From: a virus | IMG/VR virus record: IMGVR_UViG_3300024353_000003 | Coordinates: 1 to 39,287 of that record | DNA: 39,287 nt | Direction: 5' to 3' (one strand) | Part shown: piece by piece, positions 13,865 to 39,287 of the stretch | How positions within the stretch are numbered: the stretch's first letter is position 1 | How the letters are laid out: each line of letters begins with the position of its first letter | The notes under the pieces: model-generated | What the model saw: only the letters and a program-made list of their open reading frames with translations | Database searches by the model: none | What the model was told of the DNA's origin: nothing | Position numbers and translations under genes: made by a program

Positions 13865-14359
13865 ATGTCGTTTCGGATAGAAGAAGAGGGAGTGTTCCGG
13901 GGAATCGTTAAGTTCCTCAACATCATTCTGAACGCCGGGTGCGTCGCCGATGTTCACGTGGCGGTAGACGCCGCGATTGCGGCGTCGAAACTCCAGCACC
14001 AGCACCGCGAGACTTGCGCCCAGGAGAGCGGGGCGACCGCCGCCGCCGAGACGCGGGTCGTCCACGTCGTCAAAGGGACGGCGGGCCAGGTCCGGACTTT
14101 TCAAGCCGGCTGCGTGACGCCGTGCCTCGGCGATGCGACCATCACGATGGACCTGCTGAAGAACGGGGCGAGCATCCTGACGGCGGCGATCAGCCTGACG
14201 AGCGCCCAGGCCGCCTACGACCTGGTGGCCGGGACCATCGACACCGACACCCTCGAGGCCGGCGATGTCCTGGAGGTGGCCGTGACCGTCAACGCCGGCA
14301 CGGGCACGCTCGGGGTGGGCGTGTTCTGCTACGTCGATCTGTGGGAAGACGAATCCTGA
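13865..14359 (+). CDS. Putative fibre or tail-tip beta-sandwich protein
   Basis: 164 aa. The middle and C-terminus have a compact beta pattern (GDATITMDLLKNGASILTAAISL, then TIDTDTLEAGDVLEVAVTVNAGTGTLGVGVFCYVDL), reminiscent of adhesion or fibre-head domains. No signal or membrane segment is seen. The ATG follows GGGAGATGAGCC. The stop overlaps the next start (TGATG), so it is probably co-translated with the tail fibre and may be its attachment partner. No family name can be given. Confidence 0.5.
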   Translation: MSFRIEEEGVFRGIVKFLNIILNAGCVADVHVAVDAAIAASKLQHQHRETCAQESGATAAAETRVVHVVKGTAGQVRTFQAGCVTPCLGDATITMDLLKNGASILTAAISLTSAQAAYDLVAGTIDTDTLEAGDVLEVAVTVNAGTGTLGVGVFCYVDLWEDES

Positions 14360-16128
14360 TGGCAGGTGACGCCTTCAAAAAAAGGACCGCCGGCGAGCCG
14401 CTCGAGATCCCGGCCGAGGCCTACAACGCCTTCATCGACGCCGCCCGGGCCGACCGGGCCCGCCGGGGCGACCAGGGCGCTCCGGAGCAGACCGTCCCGC
14501 GCGAGAGCGGCATCGTCCTCGTCAAGAACACAACCGAAGCCGACCTTGACCGCCTCGCCGTTCTCGGCATCGACGCGCCCATCTTCACGCCCGAGGACAA
14601 TGAGCAGGAGTTCAAGAACCGCGTGGCCCTGAAGGGCGTCACGCCGATCCTCGAGGACCATCAGGAGCGGTTCGCCATTCTCCTCGAGCCGCTGGCCGCC
14701 GGGCGCATAGGCCTCGGCATGGTGCAGGGCGTGACGCCAGTCCGCCTCTACGTCACAAACGAGGGACACCGCGGGGCAGGGGTGGTGGAGGGCAAGACGG
14801 GATATCTATGCAGCCAGACGACGGCGCCCGTCACGGTCCTGTGGAAGGAGGCCGGCAAGAGCGAGAACGAAGAGGATTTGAAGTGGGCTATTGTCGCGAT
14901 TCGCGGCGGTGGAGGCATCGCTGCATCCTTCGTCTGGCGCGCCCAGGTCGTCGGCATCTACGCGGCGGGCGGCGGGGCATGGGTCGACTTCGCCACGAGC
15001 GGGTGGCAGGCCTACGTGACGGCCAACCCCCTCTTCGGGGATGGGACGCCCGACGAGGACACGACCCTTTTCCTGAAACTCACGGCCCAGTGCGCCGAGG
15101 CCAAAGCCGGTTTCAGGCATGTCGTGGTCGGCAATAAGATCGGCTACGTCACCGCCAGCGACACCGCCGACGTGCCGGGCCAGCCGGCCGACACGAAGTA
15201 CAACGGATGGGTCCTGCTGCACGGCGGGGACCAGGGCGCGACGCTCGCCGCCCTTATCGGCATCAAGGGCGGGCCGGGCATCGTGGTCGACGACGTGACG
15301 GATCCGGACAAGCCGAAGGTCAGCGTTGACCTGGCCAACGTGACGCCGCCCGGCCTCCAGTTCGTGGACGGGGCGGGCGACGCCGGCAAACTGGCCGTCA
15401 AGCCCGACACGACCAAGGGCGTCGACGTCGGCGCCGATGCCGGTGTCCGCGTGGACCTCGCCGCCGTCGACCCCGGTCTGCAGTTCCCGGGCGGCGACCT
15501 GGCCGTCCTGCCCAACGCCGACAAGGCCATCATCGTGGAGGCCGCCGGCGTCGGCGTCGTGGCCAACGCCGACAAGGCCATCATCGTCGAGGTCGCCGGC
15601 GTCGGCGTCGTGGCCAACGCCGACAAGGCCATCATCGTCGAGGTCGCCGGCGTCGGCGTCGTGGCCAACACCGAGAAGGCCATCGTCGTTGACGGCGACG
15701 GCGTCGGCGTCATAGCGAACAACGACTATGGGATCGAGGTGAGTGGCGATGGCGTAGCTGCCCGCCTGAAGTCCAACGGTGGGATCGTTTTTGATGCGGG
15801 GGAAATCGCGGCATCGACGAACGTGGACTGCGGGACGTGGGTGGATCCCGTAGGCGGCCACATCGCCGTTCACGCTGATGGCGCCCACGGTATCCAGGTC
15901 AGCGGGCCGATGGGCGGCGTCGGCGTAATGGCGGGCGACGGTCTGACGTTCGGGACTGGCGGCGATGTGGAAGTGGACTACGATTTGGACCTCACCATCG
16001 ACGGCACCGGCAAAGTCATCCACAACGCCCCGCATTCAAAGACCGGAAACGAGCAACACTTCGAGGCGCCCGACGGGTTCACGCATATTTGGACTGACTG
16101 CTATGGCCACACCTATTGTGCCTACTGA
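14359..16128 (+). CDS. Tail fibre with tandem repeats and duplicated tip domain
   Basis: 589 aa. Residues 1-150 are an N-terminal domain, probably for attachment (AFKKRTAGEPLEIPAEAYNAFIDAARA). Residues about 380-460 hold four 17-residue repeats of the type NADKAIIVEVAGVGVVA. The C-terminal about 120 residues form a compact tip module (GGIVFDAGEIAAS..IAVHADGAHGIQVSGPMGGVGVM..VEVDYDLDLTIDGTGKVIHNAPHSKTG). This tip is repeated, diverged and inverted, in the leftward gene at 16229..17248. The end overlaps the start of the glycosyltransferase-like gene by 26 nt. Fibre assignment is by position, repeats and composition. Confidence 0.68.
   Translation: MAGDAFKKRTAGEPLEIPAEAYNAFIDAARADRARRGDQGAPEQTVPRESGIVLVKNTTEADLDRLAVLGIDAPIFTPEDNEQEFKNRVALKGVTPILEDHQERFAILLEPLAAGRIGLGMVQGVTPVRLYVTNEGHRGAGVVEGKTGYLCSQTTAPVTVLWKEAGKSENEEDLKWAIVAIRGGGGIAASFVWRAQVVGIYAAGGGAWVDFATSGWQAYVTANPLFGDGTPDEDTTLFLKLTAQCAEAKAGFRHVVVGNKIGYVTASDTADVPGQPADTKYNGWVLLHGGDQGATLAALIGIKGGPGIVVDDVTDPDKPKVSVDLANVTPPGLQFVDGAGDAGKLAVKPDTTKGVDVGADAGVRVDLAAVDPGLQFPGGDLAVLPNADKAIIVEAAGVGVVANADKAIIVEVAGVGVVANADKAIIVEVAGVGVVANTEKAIVVDGDGVGVIANNDYGIEVSGDGVAARLKSNGGIVFDAGEIAASTNVDCGTWVDPVGGHIAVHADGAHGIQVSGPMGGVGVMAGDGLTFGTGGDVEVDYDLDLTIDGTGKVIHNAPHSKTGNEQHFEAPDGFTHIWTDCYGHTYCAY
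15511..15714 (+). repeat. Four 51-bp tandem repeats within the tail-fibre gene
   Basis: Units at 15511..15561, 15562..15612, 15613..15663 and 15664..15714 each encode 17 residues. The second and third are identical, the first differs slightly, and the fourth is diverged. A weaker fifth follows. Recent duplication of unit 2/3 is evident. The repeats should lengthen a fibre shaft. Confidence 0.9.
15760..16122 (+). repeat. Inverted repeat, left arm (fibre tip coding)
   Basis: This segment encodes the fibre C-terminal tip and is repeated in inverted orientation at 16785..17143. The copies are diverged but contain long identical runs, several around 30 bases, for example around 15865..15935 and 16000..16045. 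The 16123..16784 spacer holds most of the glycosyltransferase-like gene. Confidence 0.88.
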
Positions 16129-16750
16129 CAGCGAGAAGCCAGCGCCGGCCCAGACCCCCCCGACGATCCACGTCGCGGGCCGCTACCACGTCGCCATCTT
16201 GGCCTATGGCGGGTTTCTTGCCGACGATTTAGCGGCCTGGCTCTTGACCGAATCTGGACGCGGCGCAATCGGCAGCGTTCACTTCGTGAACCGGCTGGAC
16301 GTCGTGTGCGCCCGAAACGCCGCTTGCATGCACTTTCTCCGGCGCACGCATCAGGAGATCCTGCTCCAGGTCAACCGCGACCTCTTGCCCAGGCTGTCCG
16401 GATTCGAGCTCGATCTGCACGGCGACCTGGGCGGGTGCGACGTCGTCACCGCGCGCTACGCCGGCCCCGAGGGTGAATATCACAAGGACGGACACGCGAG
16501 CGGGTTCATGGCCATCCGCCGCCCCGTCCTCGAGGCCTTCGGCCCCCCGTGGTTTGGCGTCACCTACGACGCGGCCGGGACCGAGCAGACGATATGCGAG
16601 TGCGAGACGTTCATTCGCCGCATCCGCCAGGCGGGCTTCAAGGCGGGACGCTGGACGACGCCCATCGTACACCGACACATGCACGAGTACCGGCTTGTGC
16701 CGCCGATCGCCGCCGGCCCTGCGGCTGTGCCCGCCGCCAGGGACGACTGA
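16103..16750 (+). CDS. Glycosyltransferase-like protein (GT-A fold, family 2-like)
   Basis: 215 aa; start ATG at 16103 inside the fibre 3' end. RLDVVCARNAACMHFLRRT (about 58-76), GHASGFMAIRRPVLEAFGPPWF (about 134-155) and CECETFIRRIRQAGFKAGRWTTPIVHRHM (about 168-196) match phage glycosyltransferase-like proteins. The usual DxD is not obvious; LLQVNRDLL occupies its place, so activity is doubtful or metal-independent. It might modify the host surface, DNA or a virion protein. The gene lies between inverted copies of the fibre-tip module, and the leftward fibre-tip gene runs antisense through it. Confidence 0.62.
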   Translation: MATPIVPTDSEKPAPAQTPPTIHVAGRYHVAILAYGGFLADDLAAWLLTESGRGAIGSVHFVNRLDVVCARNAACMHFLRRTHQEILLQVNRDLLPRLSGFELDLHGDLGGCDVVTARYAGPEGEYHKDGHASGFMAIRRPVLEAFGPPWFGVTYDAAGTEQTICECETFIRRIRQAGFKAGRWTTPIVHRHMHEYRLVPPIAAGPAAVPAARDD

Positions 16751-17248
16751 CTGAGATGGACCGGTCTTACCCCGTCGGCCGGCCCAGTAGACATGGCCGT
16801 ATCGATCACACCAGATATCGGTGATTCCGTCGGCGGCGTTGTAGTGCGCCTCCTCTCCGGTCTTTGAATGCGGGGCGTTGTGGATGAGTTTGCCGGTGCC
16901 GTCGATGGTGAGGTCGCAATCGTAGTCCACTTCCACGCTGCCTATATTGCCGATCGTCAGACCATCGCCCGTCATCACGCCGACGCCGCCCATCGGCCCG
17001 CTGACCTGGATGCCGTGGGCGCCATCAGCGTGAACGGCGATCTCGCCGCTTACAGGGTCCACCCATGTCCCATGCTCCACGCTCGTCGACGCCGCGATGC
17101 CCCCCAAATCAAGCACGATCCCGCCGAGGGCCTTCAGGCGGGCCTCAGGCTGCCCCCTGCGTCCCTCTCGTTCCTCCCCCCAGGCCGCCAGGGCGAAGCC
17201 TCCCGCCACGATCACGGCCGCAAAGCTGATCAGTAGAATCCTTCTCAT
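16229..17248 (-). CDS. Secreted protein carrying a copy of the tail-fibre tip domain
   Basis: 339 aa, ATG at 17248 with AAAGGAGACC upstream. Residues 1-21 are a signal peptide (MRRI, hydrophobic core, ALA cleavage site before AWG). Residues about 37-155 match the tail-fibre tip domain (IAVHADGAHGIQVSGPMGGVGVM..VEVDYDCDLTIDGTGKLIHNAPHSKTG). Beyond about residue 160 the frame is simply open antisense to the glycosyltransferase-like gene; this part is Arg/Gly/Ala-rich and may not be functional. A clear promoter lies at 17414..17386. Export of a receptor-binding domain without a tail suggests receptor masking or superinfection exclusion; this is inference. Confidence 0.7.
   Translation of the reverse strand: MRRILLISFAAVIVAGGFALAAWGEEREGRRGQPEARLKALGGIVLDLGGIAASTSVEHGTWVDPVSGEIAVHADGAHGIQVSGPMGGVGVMTGDGLTIGNIGSVEVDYDCDLTIDGTGKLIHNAPHSKTGEEAHYNAADGITDIWCDRYGHVYWAGRRGKTGPSQSVVPGGGHSRRAGGDRRHKPVLVHVSVYDGRRPASRLEARLADAANERLALAYRLLGPGRVVGDAKPRGAEGLEDGAADGHEPARVSVLVIFTLGAGVARGDDVAPAQVAVQIELESGQPGQEVAVDLEQDLLMRAPEKVHASGVSGAHDVQPVHEVNAADCAASRFGQEPGR
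16785..17143 (-). repeat. Inverted repeat, right arm (secreted fibre-tip copy)
   Basis: A diverged inverted copy of 15760..16122. Both copies stay open and conserve protein sequence better than silent positions would require. This suggests selection on both rather than a dead duplicate. Confidence 0.88.
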
Positions 17249-17333
17249 TTCGGTCTCCTTTCGTCCACCGTTCCAGGGATCGAATTGTCCGATTCGCCAG
17301 ACTGCTCGTCAGACTAAACGCGGAGAGGATCGA

Positions 17334-17431
17334 CTTTGTCGGCGGGCCGGGATTGCGCCGCCCGATCCATCTTGCCCTCAAAAACAGTATACCCCACGTT
17401 TGGCCCTTGTGCAAATGGTTCTCTCCCTTCG
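17334..17431 (-). promoter_or_regulatory. Leftward promoter with shared operator/leader (copy M)
   Basis: Reading leftward, -35 TTGCAC (17414..17409), 17-nt spacer, and -10 TATACT (17391..17386). The spacer holds GGCCAAACGTGGGG. The leader contains an 18-base block (CGGGCGGCGCAATCCCGG) able to form a hairpin. Promoter, spacer and leader match the rightward promoter at 30401..30498 over about 100 bp. Transcription would lead into the secreted fibre-tip gene with a 5' UTR of roughly 130 nt. Confidence 0.72.
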
Positions 17432-17543: not shown

Positions 17544-18116
17544 ATGTCCTCGCGCAAAGCCGTGTCTGCCGGCAGGCCTGCCCGCCGTGGCCGGCAAGCC
17601 ACGCCCCGCAAAAAGCCCGCCGCGGCGGGCAAGGTTCGCGTACCAACCATCACGTCATGGCCGGCCGTCGACCGTTTCTTGGGCCACATGGCCCGGATCG
17701 ACGCCCAAGCCGACGCCCTTTGCGCCGACGTGAATCGGCGTGTCCAGGCGGTGAAGGACAAGGCGACAGCCCGCCACATTCGCCTGGCCGCGGAGAGGGC
17801 CGCCCTGGAGGCCGAGATCGAGGTCTTCGCCAAGAGCCACAAGACCGACTTCGGCAAGGACCGCAGCATCCGTCTCGCCCACGGCCGCGTGGGCTGGCGG
17901 GCCGCCGAGCAGATCCGGTTTACGGCGAAGGTCGAAGAGATCGTTGCGGCCCTGGAAGCGCGGGGCCTCGACTTGGCCGTCATGGTCACCAAGCGGGCCT
18001 CCAAAGACGTCCTGGCGACCTTCGACGACGCACTGCTGGCCGATCTCGGCGTCAAACGGCGGCGGGTTGACAAGTTCTACATCGACCTTGACGAGGCCCA
18101 GCTGGCCCGTCCGTGA
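17544..18116 (+). CDS. gam: Mu Gam-like DNA end-protection protein
   Basis: 190 aa. Residues 1-32 are a basic tail. Residues about 45-115 form a long helical segment (DAQADALCADVNRRVQAVKDKATARHIRLAAERAALEAEIEVFAKSHK), followed by RSIRLAHGRVGWRAAEQIRFT and VEEIVAALEARGLDLAV, the pattern of the phage Mu Gam family. Gam binds double-strand DNA ends and blocks host exonucleases; it is distantly related to Ku. AAGGAGGT lies 4 nt before the ATG. The gene sits beside attP and the integrase, away from replication genes, and is expressed rightward. Confidence 0.85.
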   Translation: MSSRKAVSAGRPARRGRQATPRKKPAAAGKVRVPTITSWPAVDRFLGHMARIDAQADALCADVNRRVQAVKDKATARHIRLAAERAALEAEIEVFAKSHKTDFGKDRSIRLAHGRVGWRAAEQIRFTAKVEEIVAALEARGLDLAVMVTKRASKDVLATFDDALLADLGVKRRRVDKFYIDLDEAQLARP

Positions 18117-18149
18117 CCCGCCCTCTGGCACAACCTGTCTCGATAAGTC

Positions 18150-18168
18150 GTGGCACCTATTTGGCACC
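18150..18168 (+). repeat. Direct repeat flanking attP, copy 1 (possible integrase arm site)
   Basis: GTGGCACCTATTTGGCACC. It differs at one of 19 positions from 18390..18408. Each copy contains TGGCACC twice, spaced 10 nt. The two copies lie about 80 nt on either side of the tRNA-Leu fragment, as expected for arm-type integrase binding sites. Confidence 0.6.
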
Positions 18169-18248: not shown

Positions 18249-18309
18249 CGGGATTCAAAATCCCGTGGCCCTTGCGGGCCGTGTGGGTTCAACTCCCACC
18301 TTCGGCACC
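18249..18309 (+). other. attP: attP: 3' part of a tRNA-Leu(CAA) gene
   Basis: The segment folds as the 3' two-thirds of a tRNA-Leu. The anticodon stem is CGGGA/TCCCG (18249..18253, 18261..18265) with loop TTCAAAA, giving anticodon CAA at 18256..18258. A long class-II variable arm follows, then a T-arm GTGGG/CCCAC with loop TTCAACT (18283..18299) and acceptor 3' strand CTTCGGC followed by ACC. No 5' half or D-arm is present, so it is not a functional tRNA gene. Such a fragment next to a tyrosine integrase is the classic attP identity segment that restores the host tRNA on integration. Confidence 0.88.
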
Positions 18310-18324
18310 CGATAAGTGATGCTC

Positions 18325-19617
18325 TTATAATGGGTTATCGCGGTCGTCGATCTCGCCGGGGAACTCAGTGTCCTCACTGTCCGGTGGTTGTGGCACCTGT
18401 TTGGCACCTTGCGCGCCGCGGGAGAAGGCCTCAAAGGCGGCGGCGGCGCCGTCGGCCTGGCCCTCGCCGATGTACCCTTCGGTCGTCCGGAAGTCGGCGT
18501 GGCCCAGGAGATCGCGGATGTCCAGGGGCGCCGCGCCCGCCTCCTTCGCCAGCCGGCCGATGGTCCGCCTCAGGCCGTGACACGTCACGACCGGTACGCT
18601 GGCCGCCACACAGGCCCGGCCAAGGCCGGCCGTAAAGTCCCTCTCCCACGGATCGTGCAACGGGCTTGCACCCCGGCCAAAGACGCGGCCCGCGAGAACC
18701 ACCTGGCGGACCTCCTCGGACGATGCGCCGTCGGTCGAGGCAATGACCTTGGCGATCCGGGCCGGACGCCAATCGGTCAACAGGCCCGCCGCCGCCTCGC
18801 CGAAGCGCAGCACGCGCGCGCGGCCACTCTTCGGCTGCCAACCGCAAGGCTCGCGGGTCACGAGCCACGTCCGGGCCGAAAGATCCAGGTGCGGCCATGT
18901 AACGTGGGCGAGTTCCTGAATTCTCGGTCCACAATCGGCGGCCAGGGCGACGGCCGCGTGGAGATCGAGCGGCAGGGCGGCAGCCGCCGCCAGCAACCGC
19001 CGACGCTGGGCAAAGGTGAGACGGACCCGGCCGGCCCGAAATACCTTCAGGCGCGAGGCCCCCGCCCAGGGGTTCTCGGCCGCAAGCCCCAGACGCACCA
19101 GGTGCCCCCAAAACGCCGCCAGGTGCGCAAGGTCGCGGTTGATGGTCACGGCCTCGACCTTTTGGCCGCGGCGCGGGTGGGCCTGGCGCCATGCGGCGTA
19201 TCCTTCCGCCAGAGGGCCGGTCACATCGTCGGTAAACCGGAGCCCCCCCCAAAGTTTCGTCGCGACGTAGGCCTGGGCCAGGTCCAGGATCCGGCGGTAC
19301 GTGCCGATCGACTCGGGCCGAAGACGGGTCCCGAGATACTCGAAGACCCGGCCCTTGGCCTCGGGCCAGGGAGAAGGGGCTGGCAAAATCTCCTGGGCCA
19401 AGCCGTTCAATTGCCGTTCGCGCTCGGCGGCGCGCTCGTAAGCGCGGCGCTTCTGGCGGAGGGTCGCGCCGCGGACGACCTCGCGAATCACGCGGCGGGT
19501 CAGCCGATCGGTGATCTTGAGCTGGTAGGGCCATCTGCGGCCATCGCGGCGGGTGATGACCGTCACGCGCCACCGCATACCGGGAAGGATGAGTTGTCTT
19601 GCGCTCATGGTCCGCAT
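18325..19617 (-). CDS. int: Tyrosine-family site-specific integrase
   Basis: 430 aa from the ATG at 19617; ATG 19608 is an alternative, and the frame is open to 19875 without support. The N-terminal region (to about 90) is basic and arm-binding-like. Residues about 92-190 are the core-binding SAM-like domain. The catalytic domain shows Arg232 (CGPRIQEL), His347/Arg350 (CHGLR), His373 (LLGHAD) and nucleophile Tyr382 (TEGYI); a Lys near 263 is plausible. Its 3' end contains one of the arm-like repeats (18390..18408), and attP lies just beyond the stop. It is the last gene of the leftward operon. Confidence 0.93.
   Translation of the reverse strand: MRTMSARQLILPGMRWRVTVITRRDGRRWPYQLKITDRLTRRVIREVVRGATLRQKRRAYERAAERERQLNGLAQEILPAPSPWPEAKGRVFEYLGTRLRPESIGTYRRILDLAQAYVATKLWGGLRFTDDVTGPLAEGYAAWRQAHPRRGQKVEAVTINRDLAHLAAFWGHLVRLGLAAENPWAGASRLKVFRAGRVRLTFAQRRRLLAAAAALPLDLHAAVALAADCGPRIQELAHVTWPHLDLSARTWLVTREPCGWQPKSGRARVLRFGEAAAGLLTDWRPARIAKVIASTDGASSEEVRQVVLAGRVFGRGASPLHDPWERDFTAGLGRACVAASVPVVTCHGLRRTIGRLAKEAGAAPLDIRDLLGHADFRTTEGYIGEGQADGAAAAFEAFSRGAQGAKQVPQPPDSEDTEFPGEIDDRDNPL
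18390..18408 (+). repeat. Direct repeat flanking attP, copy 2 (inside the integrase 3' end)
   Basis: GTGGCACCTGTTTGGCACC, one mismatch from 18150..18168. It encodes part of the Ala-Lys-Gln-Val-Pro-Gln C-terminal region of the integrase on the opposite strand. Confidence 0.6.
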
Positions 19618-19664
19618 CGCCCTCGTCTCGACATCCTCCAGTCTGCCGGCGATCGGCCCCGGTG

Positions 19665-19847
19665 TCAAGCGTCCTCGCCAAAGAGCGTTGGCTCGCCTCT
19701 CGCAGCCTTCGTGGCCACTCTCCCTTCTCCAAAGCGCACGGACACAACAAGCATGGGAAGCGGACAAAGGTAGAGTGTTCTGGACTGTTGACTCCAATAG
19801 GCGCCCACCCACAGATCGTACCAAGCGAAGAAAACCCTGATTCGCAT
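19665..19847 (-). CDS. Small conserved-looking phage protein
   Basis: 60 aa, ATG at 19847 overlapping the stop of the cytosine methyltransferase (TGATG), with AAGGAGG just inside that gene. The sequence MRIRVFFAWYDLWVGAYW..LYLCPLPMLVVSVRF is aromatic and hydrophobic. I have seen similar short ORFs in temperate phages as uncharacterised proteins. It may be a compact two-strand plus helix peptide. The function is unknown. Confidence 0.65.
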   Translation of the reverse strand: MRIRVFFAWYDLWVGAYWSQQSRTLYLCPLPMLVVSVRFGEGRVATKAARGEPTLFGEDA

Positions 19848-20734
19848 CAGTCGTCCTCCTTACAGATCGCCTCAAGAATGGCCCGGCCGAGATCGATCTG
19901 GATGGCCTGGCCGATCATCTTCCAGACGTCGCCGGGAGTGCCGACAAAGAGATAGTCCGAGGAAAAACCCTGCAGCGCCGCGGCCTCCTGCCACTCCAGC
20001 TGACGTTTGCCGTAGCGCAGTTCCGGGGCCACCACGGCGGCGTCGGCATCCCGCCGGCTGGAGAAGGTACACACGGTGGGGGCCTTGTTTGCCGGGACGT
20101 AGGCCATGAAGGACTTGCCGTCGTAAACAAAGGACGTCCGGGGCCTGCGATCCCGCGTGCGCATCCCGACCCGGTAGGGCCCGGGCCGGAGACAATCGCG
20201 AAGCACCCGCCGGTCCGGGGTCTGCGATCTCACGGCCGGAAAGTCCCCGACGAAAACACGTCTTCGGCGCTGCGGCCCAAAGCCGATCGCGTCCAGGACC
20301 CGAAACGGTGTGAGCGGCGGCAGCTCCCGTACCAGACCGAGAACGTCCTCCAGACACCACCAGCGCGGAGCCAGGCCCTTGACAACCCCCAGGATCGCAT
20401 CGAGCAGCGCCCGACCTTCCGCCAACTCGGCCGGCTTCGGCTTGGTGCGCGGCTGCCAGCCGTTTCGGAGGATCGAGAGCCATTCGCACGGAATGCCGCC
20501 GAGGACGATGTCCACGTCGCCGGCCAAGCGGCAGGTCATCTGGCGCGTTGCATGTGACGTCAGATCGGCACACAGGACGGCAGTGTTCGGATGGTTCGCC
20601 CGGTAGGTGAGGCAAGCGCGGTCCCACTTGTCGACGGCGGCGATGATCTCGATCGGCAAGCCCTTGGCCGCGCAGGCCCAGCCCCCCGCCCCGCCGCACA
20701 GATCGATGGCACGAAGGCAACCATTCTCATCCAT
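19847..20734 (-). CDS. DNA cytosine-C5 methyltransferase
   Basis: 295 aa. Motif I is IDLCGGAGGWACA (residues 10-22). Motif IV is GGIPCEW with catalytic Cys83. Motif VI appears as WWCLEDV rather than the usual ENV. Motif VIII is FGPQRRRRVFVG, and motif X is IGQAIQIDLGRAI near the end. It should methylate cytosine at carbon 5 in a specific DNA sequence. No restriction enzyme of a standard type pairs with it; the adjacent PD-(D/E)XK protein is the nearest candidate. It is an operon member with an 8-nt overlap upstream and TGATG overlap downstream. The target sequence cannot be read from the protein. Confidence 0.88.
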   Translation of the reverse strand: MDENGCLRAIDLCGGAGGWACAAKGLPIEIIAAVDKWDRACLTYRANHPNTAVLCADLTSHATRQMTCRLAGDVDIVLGGIPCEWLSILRNGWQPRTKPKPAELAEGRALLDAILGVVKGLAPRWWCLEDVLGLVRELPPLTPFRVLDAIGFGPQRRRRVFVGDFPAVRSQTPDRRVLRDCLRPGPYRVGMRTRDRRPRTSFVYDGKSFMAYVPANKAPTVCTFSSRRDADAAVVAPELRYGKRQLEWQEAAALQGFSSDYLFVGTPGDVWKMIGQAIQIDLGRAILEAICKEDD

Positions 20735-30400: not shown

Positions 30401-30498
30401 CGAACGAGAGAAATCTTTGCATTGTGGCCAAATATGGGGTATAGTCTGGCTTGACGGCGACACGGACCGGGCGGCGCAATCCCGGTCTGCGAACAAAG
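30401..30498 (+). promoter_or_regulatory. Rightward promoter with shared operator/leader (copy P)
   Basis: -35 TTGCAT (30417..30422), 17-nt spacer and -10 TATAGT (30440..30445). The spacer contains GGCCAAATATGGGG. The leader carries the same CGGGCGGCGCAATCCCGG block as the leftward copy at 17334..17431. It would transcribe through two terminators toward the repressor gene. Confidence 0.75.
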
Positions 30499-30525
30499 GC
30501 GGGGATGCTGTGCGCGAAAAAAACG

Positions 30526-30763: not shown

Positions 30764-31219
30764 ATGGCTAAGTGTCCACTGGGCCAACGCTTAGAATCGC
30801 TGATCACCGGGACGAAGGGAGCCTTTGCAAAAAGAATCGGGATTTCCCACACACAACTGTCCAACACGCTCAGCGGGCGGACACCACCGAGCCGGCTCCT
30901 GCTCAAACGGTTGGCGGCGGTGTTGCTCGTGCGCGAAGAATGGTTGGAGAACGGGGAGCTACCGATGCGCGGGACGCCGACCACATCGACCGACGAGGCG
31001 ATGGCGAGAGCATTGGTCGGCCTACGAATCGCGGACGGCACCCGCAGGGCCGTGCAGGGGGCGCTGGAGCAATTCGATGGATGGGAAGAGGTCCACCGCG
31101 TCCGCCTCCGCGATCTGGAGGTGATCATCCGGCAAAGACGGGACAGTAAATCGGAAGGGCAGACCGCGGAGACCGTCGAGGCAAGCAAGGAAGACGAAGG
31201 CGCGTACACCCCATCATGA
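30764..31219 (+). CDS. CI-like XRE-family repressor without a protease domain
   Basis: 151 aa from ATG 30764 (AAGGAG upstream). Residues about 15-60 form an HTH (GAFAKRIGISHTQLSNTLSGRTPPSRLLLKRLAAVL), followed by REEWLENGELPMRG, a sequence typical of phage CI-type repressors. The remaining about 85 residues are helical and charged; no S24/LexA self-cleavage residues are seen. Prophage induction would therefore not rest on RecA-stimulated autocleavage. The orientation, opposite to the early operon, fits a lysogeny repressor. Confidence 0.72.
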   Translation: MAKCPLGQRLESLITGTKGAFAKRIGISHTQLSNTLSGRTPPSRLLLKRLAAVLLVREEWLENGELPMRGTPTTSTDEAMARALVGLRIADGTRRAVQGALEQFDGWEEVHRVRLRDLEVIIRQRRDSKSEGQTAETVEASKEDEGAYTPS

Positions 31220-38380: not shown

Positions 38381-39287
38381 TGCCCTGGCCCTTCAGAAAA
38401 CGCAAACCCGCCCGGCCGGCCACCACACGCATGGAGGATGCCCGGCTGGCTCGGGCCATCCGCGCGCGTTTCGATGCCGCACAGACGACGCCGGAGAACC
38501 GCCGGCACTGGCGGTGGGCCGATGCCCTGAGCGCCGACGCCGCCGCCAGCCCCGCGGTCCGCGCCATGCTGCGGAACCGCGCACGGTACGAGGTGGCCAA
38601 CAACTGCTACGCCAAGGGCATCGTCCTCACGCTCGCCGAAGACCTGATCGGGACAGGCCCCAGGCTTCAGATGCTGCTCGCCGACCCCGAGGCCAACCGC
38701 CGCATCGAGCGCGAGTTCGCCGCCTGGTCCCGGGCCGTCGGGCTGCCCCAAAAACTCCGCACGATGCGGATGGCCCGGGCCGCCGACGGCGAGACGTTCG
38801 CGCTGCTCGCGACGAACCCGAGCCACAATCATCCCGTCCGCCTCGACGTCAGGCTCGTCGAGGCCGAGCAGGTCGCGACGCCCAACTGGACGCCGACCCA
38901 GAAGCAACCCGTGGACGGCGTCGTCTTCGACCGGTTCGGCAACCCCGCCGAGTATCACTTCCTCGTGGACCATCCCGGCGGGACCATCCCGCGCTGGAGC
39001 CAAACCTACCGGCCCGTCCCGGCAAGCGGCGTTCTGCACTGGTTCCGCAGCGATCGGCCGGGCCAGTCGCGGGGGATCCCCGAACTGGCGCCGGCGCTGC
39101 CGCTGTTTGCGCTTCTCCGCCGCTATACGCTGGCGGTGGTCAGCGCAGCCGAAACGGCCGCCGAGTTCGCCACGTTCGTCAAGACCACGATGGCCCCCGG
39201 CGGCGAGGCCGCCGGCAGCCAGGACGGCGAGGAAGGACTGGCCGGCCTGACGATGGAAATAGAACGCAATCTCGCCATGTTTCTGCC
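38380..39287 (+). CDS. Portal protein, N-terminal part (continues at 1..725)
   Basis: The first 302 codons of the lambda-type portal, starting MPWPFRKRK. RNRARYEVANNCYAKGIVLTLAEDLIGTGPRLQ (about 66-98), DGETFALLATNP and VEAEQV (about 140-165), GNPAEYHFLVDHPG (about 190) and GQSRGIPELAPALPLFALLRRYT (about 225-250) are family motifs. The reading frame continues in phase through the 127-base terminal overlap, giving a 501-aa protein in the circle. Confidence 0.93.
   Translation, partial: MPWPFRKRKPARPATTRMEDARLARAIRARFDAAQTTPENRRHWRWADALSADAAASPAVRAMLRNRARYEVANNCYAKGIVLTLAEDLIGTGPRLQMLLADPEANRRIEREFAAWSRAVGLPQKLRTMRMARAADGETFALLATNPSHNHPVRLDVRLVEAEQVATPNWTPTQKQPVDGVVFDRFGNPAEYHFLVDHPGGTIPRWSQTYRPVPASGVLHWFRSDRPGQSRGIPELAPALPLFALLRRYTLAVVSAAETAAEFATFVKTTMAPGGEAAGSQDGEEGLAGLTMEIERNLAMFL
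39161..39287. repeat. Terminal overlap, right copy
   Basis: Exact repeat of 1..127; both copies should be collapsed when the genome is circularised. Confidence 0.93.

Follow-up and report, generated by a model that had tools for sequence, protein, structure and literature searches.

In a 39.3-kb virus genome, a leftward reading frame between the gene for a tail fiber-like protein and that for a Mu Gam-like protein joins sequences of 3 sources: a promoter copied out of the phage control region, a ribosome binding site (RBS) and signal peptide matching a planctomycete chromosomal gene, and a homologue of the phage's own fiber tip. The genome also encodes an integrase with an attP. The anatomy of this frame, which we call SEC (17248-16229, minus strand, 339 aa), is real and unusual. 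Its best single reading, to which we give somewhat less than an even chance, is that SEC is an expressed and exported mini-fiber that would occupy a cell-surface receptor. The window analyzed is the whole stretch of DNA, positions 1-39,287 of IMG/VR record IMGVR_UViG_3300024353_000003 (one strand, 67.6% GC).

Reading frame and fiber tip of SEC

SEC starts with a strong Shine–Dalgarno (SD) sequence, GAAAGGAGACCGAA (17249-17262, minus strand), followed by ATG. The first 36 codons (17141-17248, minus strand; MRRILLISFAAVIVAGGFALAAWGEEREGRRGQPEA) specify a signal peptide, with cleavage crudely estimated after residue 24, and a short linker, and the tip begins at R37. By a filter that is crude but uniform over the window, this is the only one of the 895 start codons opening ORFs of at least 100 aa that has a signal peptide as well as an SD. 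An earlier note on this DNA had described a leftward gene at 16229-17248 with an RBS, a signal peptide and a promoter, repeating the fiber tip from about residue 37, and each of these elements was recovered here.

The fiber-like structural protein itself (589 aa; 14359-16128, plus strand) consists of a conserved N-terminal region of approximately 180 aa, 17-aa repeats and a C-terminal tip (15763-16125). The repeats of the shaft (15438-15743) are 5 tandem units of 51 nt, up to 90% alike. We compared 80 loci with the fiber N-terminal domain, some of which end inside or soon after the fiber gene. Where the order could be seen, the fiber-like gene follows the tape-measure gene, and the C-termini vary highly across the loci. 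By gene order and variable C-termini, the tip, being the distal end of a tail structural protein 3′ of the tape measure, classifies as a predicted phage tail-fiber C-terminal domain.

The fiber end and SEC form the arms of an inverted repeat, 15760-16129 (plus) and 16774-17143 (minus), of 370 nt and 82% complementarity. The first arm is the end of the fiber-like protein, extending 1 base beyond the stop codon; the second, read leftward, is SEC residues 37-157. The 2 tips, each of 121 aa in an open frame, are 76-77% identical (77% by tblastn of the SEC tip, 16778-17140 on the minus strand, against 15763-16122), with an E value of 3e-58, so that their likeness is not due to chance. SEC runs for 157 codons with neither stop nor frameshift despite the 18% divergence of the tip, whose codon score in the SEC frame is coding-like (0.336). 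The tip comprises shaft-like Gly repeats (approximately residues 1-93), weakly resembling the shaft repeats of the tail fiber AfpX13 (E 0.033), and a distal head (approximately residues 97-121; 16778-16852). The structure model of the tip, with a mean pLDDT of 39, was too poor for a fold search, and no match of SEC to known exclusion proteins was found in Pfam, PHROG or PADLOC.

The 2 tips are not related as a plain copy. Synonymous differences are rare up to approximately tip residue 99 and dense thereafter (they affect 10 of the 80 codons with identical amino acids before this point versus 8 of the 12 after it; p 0.002 in a permutation test taking in all breakpoints), and this boundary lies near the switch from the Gly-rich shaft-like repeats to the distal head. 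The jump indicates that the SEC distal head, which shares 14 of 25 residues with the fiber head, is by its sequence an older, different allele. Over the whole tip, dN is 0.17 and dS 0.33; in the last 25 residues dS reaches 1.55 and dN 0.34, compared with a dS of about 0.15-0.26 in the remainder (small samples). The low dN relative to dS in the distal 25 residues points to protein-level constraint on both heads for most of their divergence, be it in a fiber or as SEC; dN/dS does not distinguish selection that acted before the capture from selection on the secreted protein. Two histories fit, homogenization of old heads upstream through gene conversion or acquisition of a different head; the arms share identical blocks of up to 35 nt.

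The end of the SEC tip is its weak point. The fiber terminates in TAC TGA, where SEC has GGC CGA; thus, the SEC tip has lost its stop codon. The frame runs on from 16777 to 16229 (minus strand) for approximately 180 codons, codon-aligned antisense to a rightward gene at 16103-16750. In this stretch (16229-16777), the codon score is 0.23 in the rightward frame versus 0.03 in the SEC frame, and in this genome composition alone keeps about half of the codon-aligned antisense frames of such length open. Codon score and antisense geometry led us to reject the 180 C-terminal residues as a real domain; the run-on is probably an accident rather than a designed domain. Hence, of the extent given in the earlier note, 16778-17248 is meaningful as SEC, whereas 16777-16229 scores as noncoding antisense. 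The antisense-coded residues following the tip could spoil the folding of SEC, and the lost stop with its run-on is a real weakness of any functional reading.

The rightward gene (16103-16750, plus strand) overlaps the end of the fiber gene. It is glycosyltransferase-like in appearance through a remote homologue (L025:275-871, E 2e-5), a tentative family assignment; a Pfam scan of its product gave no match, and its structure model was too poor for a fold search. In a related virus, a family-25 glycosyltransferase (L012:82-1416) is encoded near the fiber region, indicating that glycosyltransferases recur at this site.

Origins of the export signal and promoter

The RBS and signal peptide of SEC (17262-17182) match a gene of one planctomycete genome at the DNA level, with 87% identity over 82 bp (E 1.5e-20 and 6e-21), the RBS being common to both. 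The matched gene is chromosomal, downstream of a clpB-like gene, and is a 157-codon open frame starting from ATG (MRKILLISLAAVIVAGGIALVTYAQ). The match occurred in 1 of approximately 780 planctomycete genomes searched, which comprise class and phylum samples, drawn evenly and partly shared, and none was found in the rest of the sample. The export signal of SEC is thus probably host-derived, with the chromosomal setting of the matched gene suggesting transfer from host to phage. Given this DNA match over RBS and signal peptide, the export signal was very likely already functional when it was acquired. SEC appears to catch the phage in the capture of a host export signal.

The promoter is sigma-70-like (2 overlapping matches versus 0.2 expected), with a −35 TTTGCA at 17415-17410 and a −10 TATACT at 17391-17386 on the minus strand. 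Together with the start of the leader (17331-17425), it is a copy of 30406-30501 on the plus strand (−35 at 30416-30421, −10 at 30440-30445), at 75% identity across 96 bp (E 8e-14) and with the same −35/−10 spacing. This sister copy sits where leftward and rightward genes diverge, upstream of a gene for a repressor-like HTH_3 (Xre/CI-like) regulator (30764-31219, plus strand; Pfam HTH_3 27.5 bits, above the cut-off). Two strong terminator-like hairpins lie between the promoter at 30416 and the HTH gene at 30764, so the SEC copy is at most a candidate lysogen promoter. The segment 30406-30660, a promoter followed by the 2 hairpins 5′ of the HTH gene, is possibly a small RNA or an antitermination-controlled leader. 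The SEC leader had no Rfam match and folded no better than shuffled sequences; the promoter and leader had no exact match in viral contigs and just 26-29-nt GC-rich chance matches in planctomycete genomes. We read the joining of a phage promoter, a host export signal and a fiber tip as the best indication of a secreted product that was produced and retained.

Phage genome, probable host and insertion site

The ends of the window are an exact direct repeat of 127 bp (1-127 and 39161-39287), indicating a circular assembly, and the record is probably a complete phage genome. Relatives of its terminase were found in metagenome-assembled genomes of Phycisphaeraceae and Planctomycetaceae, suggesting that the host is probably a planctomycete. 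A tyrosine integrase (18325-19875; Phage_integrase, Pfam 54.5 bits) adjoins a probable attP (18249-18309, plus strand), 61 nt of which match the 3′ part of tRNA-Leu(CAA) genes in planctomycete-type genomes of the Phycisphaeraceae and Planctomycetaceae kind; these 2 elements make lysogeny, and hence a temperate phage, likely. Near-identical direct repeats of 22 nt at 18147-18168 and 18387-18408 flank attP and are possible integrase arm sites. Three DNA methyltransferases are encoded in this small genome (19847-20734, 21404-22723 and 32164-33555), a C5 enzyme and 2 of the N6_N4_Mtase family, one of the latter with a ParB-like N-terminus.

SEC and the glycosyltransferase-like gene sit between the fiber gene and the gene for the Mu Gam-like protein (17544-18116, plus strand; Pfam 78.5 bits). 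In the nearest relative (L024), which has 74% identity in 2 neighboring genes, the order is fiber, 62 bp, Gam, with neither gene, indicating that the 2 form an inserted accessory unit; its fiber tip is unrelated, with a weak tail-protein match. An integrase with an att site, an own promoter and absence from the near relative at the same site are features expected of a lysogenic-conversion (moron) gene. Searches for close relatives through the neighboring small gene and Gam returned just L024 and a fragment, and pattern scans of viral and genome collections, GenBank phages and plasmids yielded no relatives of the tip. Weak tip matches in 4 of 392 planctomycete genomes were rejected, as they fell in frames of unrelated genes or were Gly-rich noise. 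The pairing of a signal peptide with the tip, which the earlier note proposed to seek in relatives, was not found: none of the 80 loci, some of which stop at or near the fiber, has a signal-peptide copy of its own fiber end, and no relative with this tip was found. One locus (L049:8822-9118) has a partial, start-less duplicate of the fiber C-terminal part, 83% identical and approximately 1.1 kb downstream.

Candidate roles of SEC

Export of the fiber tip without a virion, as held by the earlier note, is well supported as a prediction from SEC anatomy, namely the host-derived RBS and signal peptide, the control-region promoter copy, the codon use of the tip, and the integrase with attP. The lost tip stop, the differing distal head and the failure to find the pair in any relative weaken the exclusion role that the earlier note inferred. 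In the reading we prefer, SEC would be a moron, an accessory gene that a temperate phage expresses, built from the promoter copy, the host RBS and signal peptide, and a fiber module of shaft plus head that is a homologue of the phage's own fiber tip but another allele. It would be transcribed in the lysogen and leave the cell through Sec as a small fiber fragment, perhaps a trimer, which would bind the cell-surface receptor class used by this fiber family. Bound SEC would lower the adsorption of phages whose tip is the same or related, the superinfection exclusion by receptor occupancy that we infer here, and the neighboring glycosyltransferase-like gene may have that receptor as its target too. 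Most plausibly, the role would be receptor occupancy or lysogenic conversion. A more specific version, which we consider doubtful, is a secreted, receptor-occupying decoy of the phage's own fiber class, made of host signal peptide, own promoter and tip allele. Since the distal head differs from that of the fiber, the two need not choose the same receptor; a tip from another allele suits the exclusion of competitors no less well than that of the phage itself, and the decoy would possibly be aimed at competitors carrying the other allele.

The lost stop with its antisense run-on, the lack of a counterpart among the 80 relatives and the start-less fragment in L049, which demonstrates that such debris does arise, would all be expected if SEC were a decaying or never-useful chimera, in which recombination at the fiber end joined the start of a host gene to a stray tip that has since lost its stop. 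Such decay is a rather unlikely account of a gene whose signal peptide, SD and promoter are all intact, which stays open for 157 codons despite the tip divergence, and which combines a good tip codon score (0.34) with a purifying pattern in the distal head. It is improbable that the inverted copy is instead a reservoir of tips, feeding the fiber through arm recombination or gene conversion and thereby altering host range. Identical blocks in the arms and the sharp divergence boundary, a sign of past conversion, speak for this possibility, but inversion would hand the fiber a stop-less end with an antisense tail of approximately 180 residues, the scanned proteins include neither an invertase nor a reverse transcriptase, the tip differences are not adenine-biased as in diversity-generating retroelements (DGRs), and a promoter, RBS and signal peptide would be superfluous in a silent donor. 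Two specific forms of tip variation were rejected: an invertase switch of the Gin/Cin type, as no serine recombinase was found among the scanned proteins, the arms are merely 82% identical and inversion would spoil the fiber end, and a DGR, as the scanned proteins lack a reverse transcriptase and the 14 differences with A on either side are balanced.

The same anatomy would serve a secreted adhesin or surface protein that helps the lysogen in attachment or aggregation and is not aimed at phages, and fiber heads in general bind cell-surface glycans or proteins; the origin from a fiber head, though, points first to the phage's own receptor, and we regard this role as quite improbable. Finally, the leftward transcript could act as an antisense RNA against the glycosyltransferase-like gene and the fiber end, the protein being incidental. 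It has its own promoter and 370 nt of complementarity to the fiber mRNA, and no terminator was found on the minus strand from 17386 to 16000. We consider this role very improbable, as an RBS, a signal peptide and an in-frame tip would be of no use to such a regulator.

T5 Llp is a coliphage receptor-blocking superinfection-exclusion protein. Masking or modification of receptors by prophage proteins has been described (PMC10883804), and the same source cites receptor-blocking exclusion by Cor of phi80/N15, with FhuA. Like Llp and Cor, SEC is a small, predicted-exported phage product expected at a cell-surface receptor; unlike them, it is a fiber-tip homologue with a captured host signal peptide. 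To our knowledge, exclusion proteins of the Llp/Cor type are not copies of the phage's own receptor-binding domain. Receptor masking by prophages is thus established, but through proteins unrelated to the receptor-binding parts of the phage. In phage gtr glycosyltransferase clusters, exemplified by gtrABC of P22 (PMC10883804), the likeness lies in a glycosyltransferase-like gene adjoining receptor-recognition genes, with possible receptor modification; here, however, the tail region holds just one small putative enzyme, neither gtrA nor gtrB was seen, and SEC itself is no enzyme.

A parallel comes from endogenous retroviruses, which give rise to the secreted Env fragments Refrex-1, FeLIX and suppressyn (PMC11019853, PMC5923473). 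SEC likewise would be a viral receptor-binding fragment, predicted to be secreted by the carrier cell and able to occupy a receptor, although it derives from an unrelated virus and has an unrelated fold. Within the decoy reading, and with the same doubt, SEC would be the bacterial-virus counterpart of these fragments. We know of no description of a secreted receptor-binding fragment strategy in phages, and among the papers searched, no report of a secreted phage fiber tip or fragment in exclusion was found. In Mu and P1, the Gin and Cin systems have alternative tail-fiber cassettes in inverted orientation. As there, a second, inverted fiber C-terminus lies beside the fiber gene, but SEC carries a promoter, an RBS and a signal peptide of its own, the second copy lacks an intact stop, and no invertase was found. 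Should the preferred reading hold, phages can convert a piece of the virion into a soluble exclusion factor, and the secreted fiber head would offer a direct handle on planctomycete-phage receptors. Other phage genomes can be searched by a simple rule, a signal peptide followed by a fiber C-terminus on the opposite strand, adjoining the fiber gene. Among the loci compared here, the fiber-like proteins of L035, L038, L039, L060, L079, L086 and others end in long serine-rich tracts.
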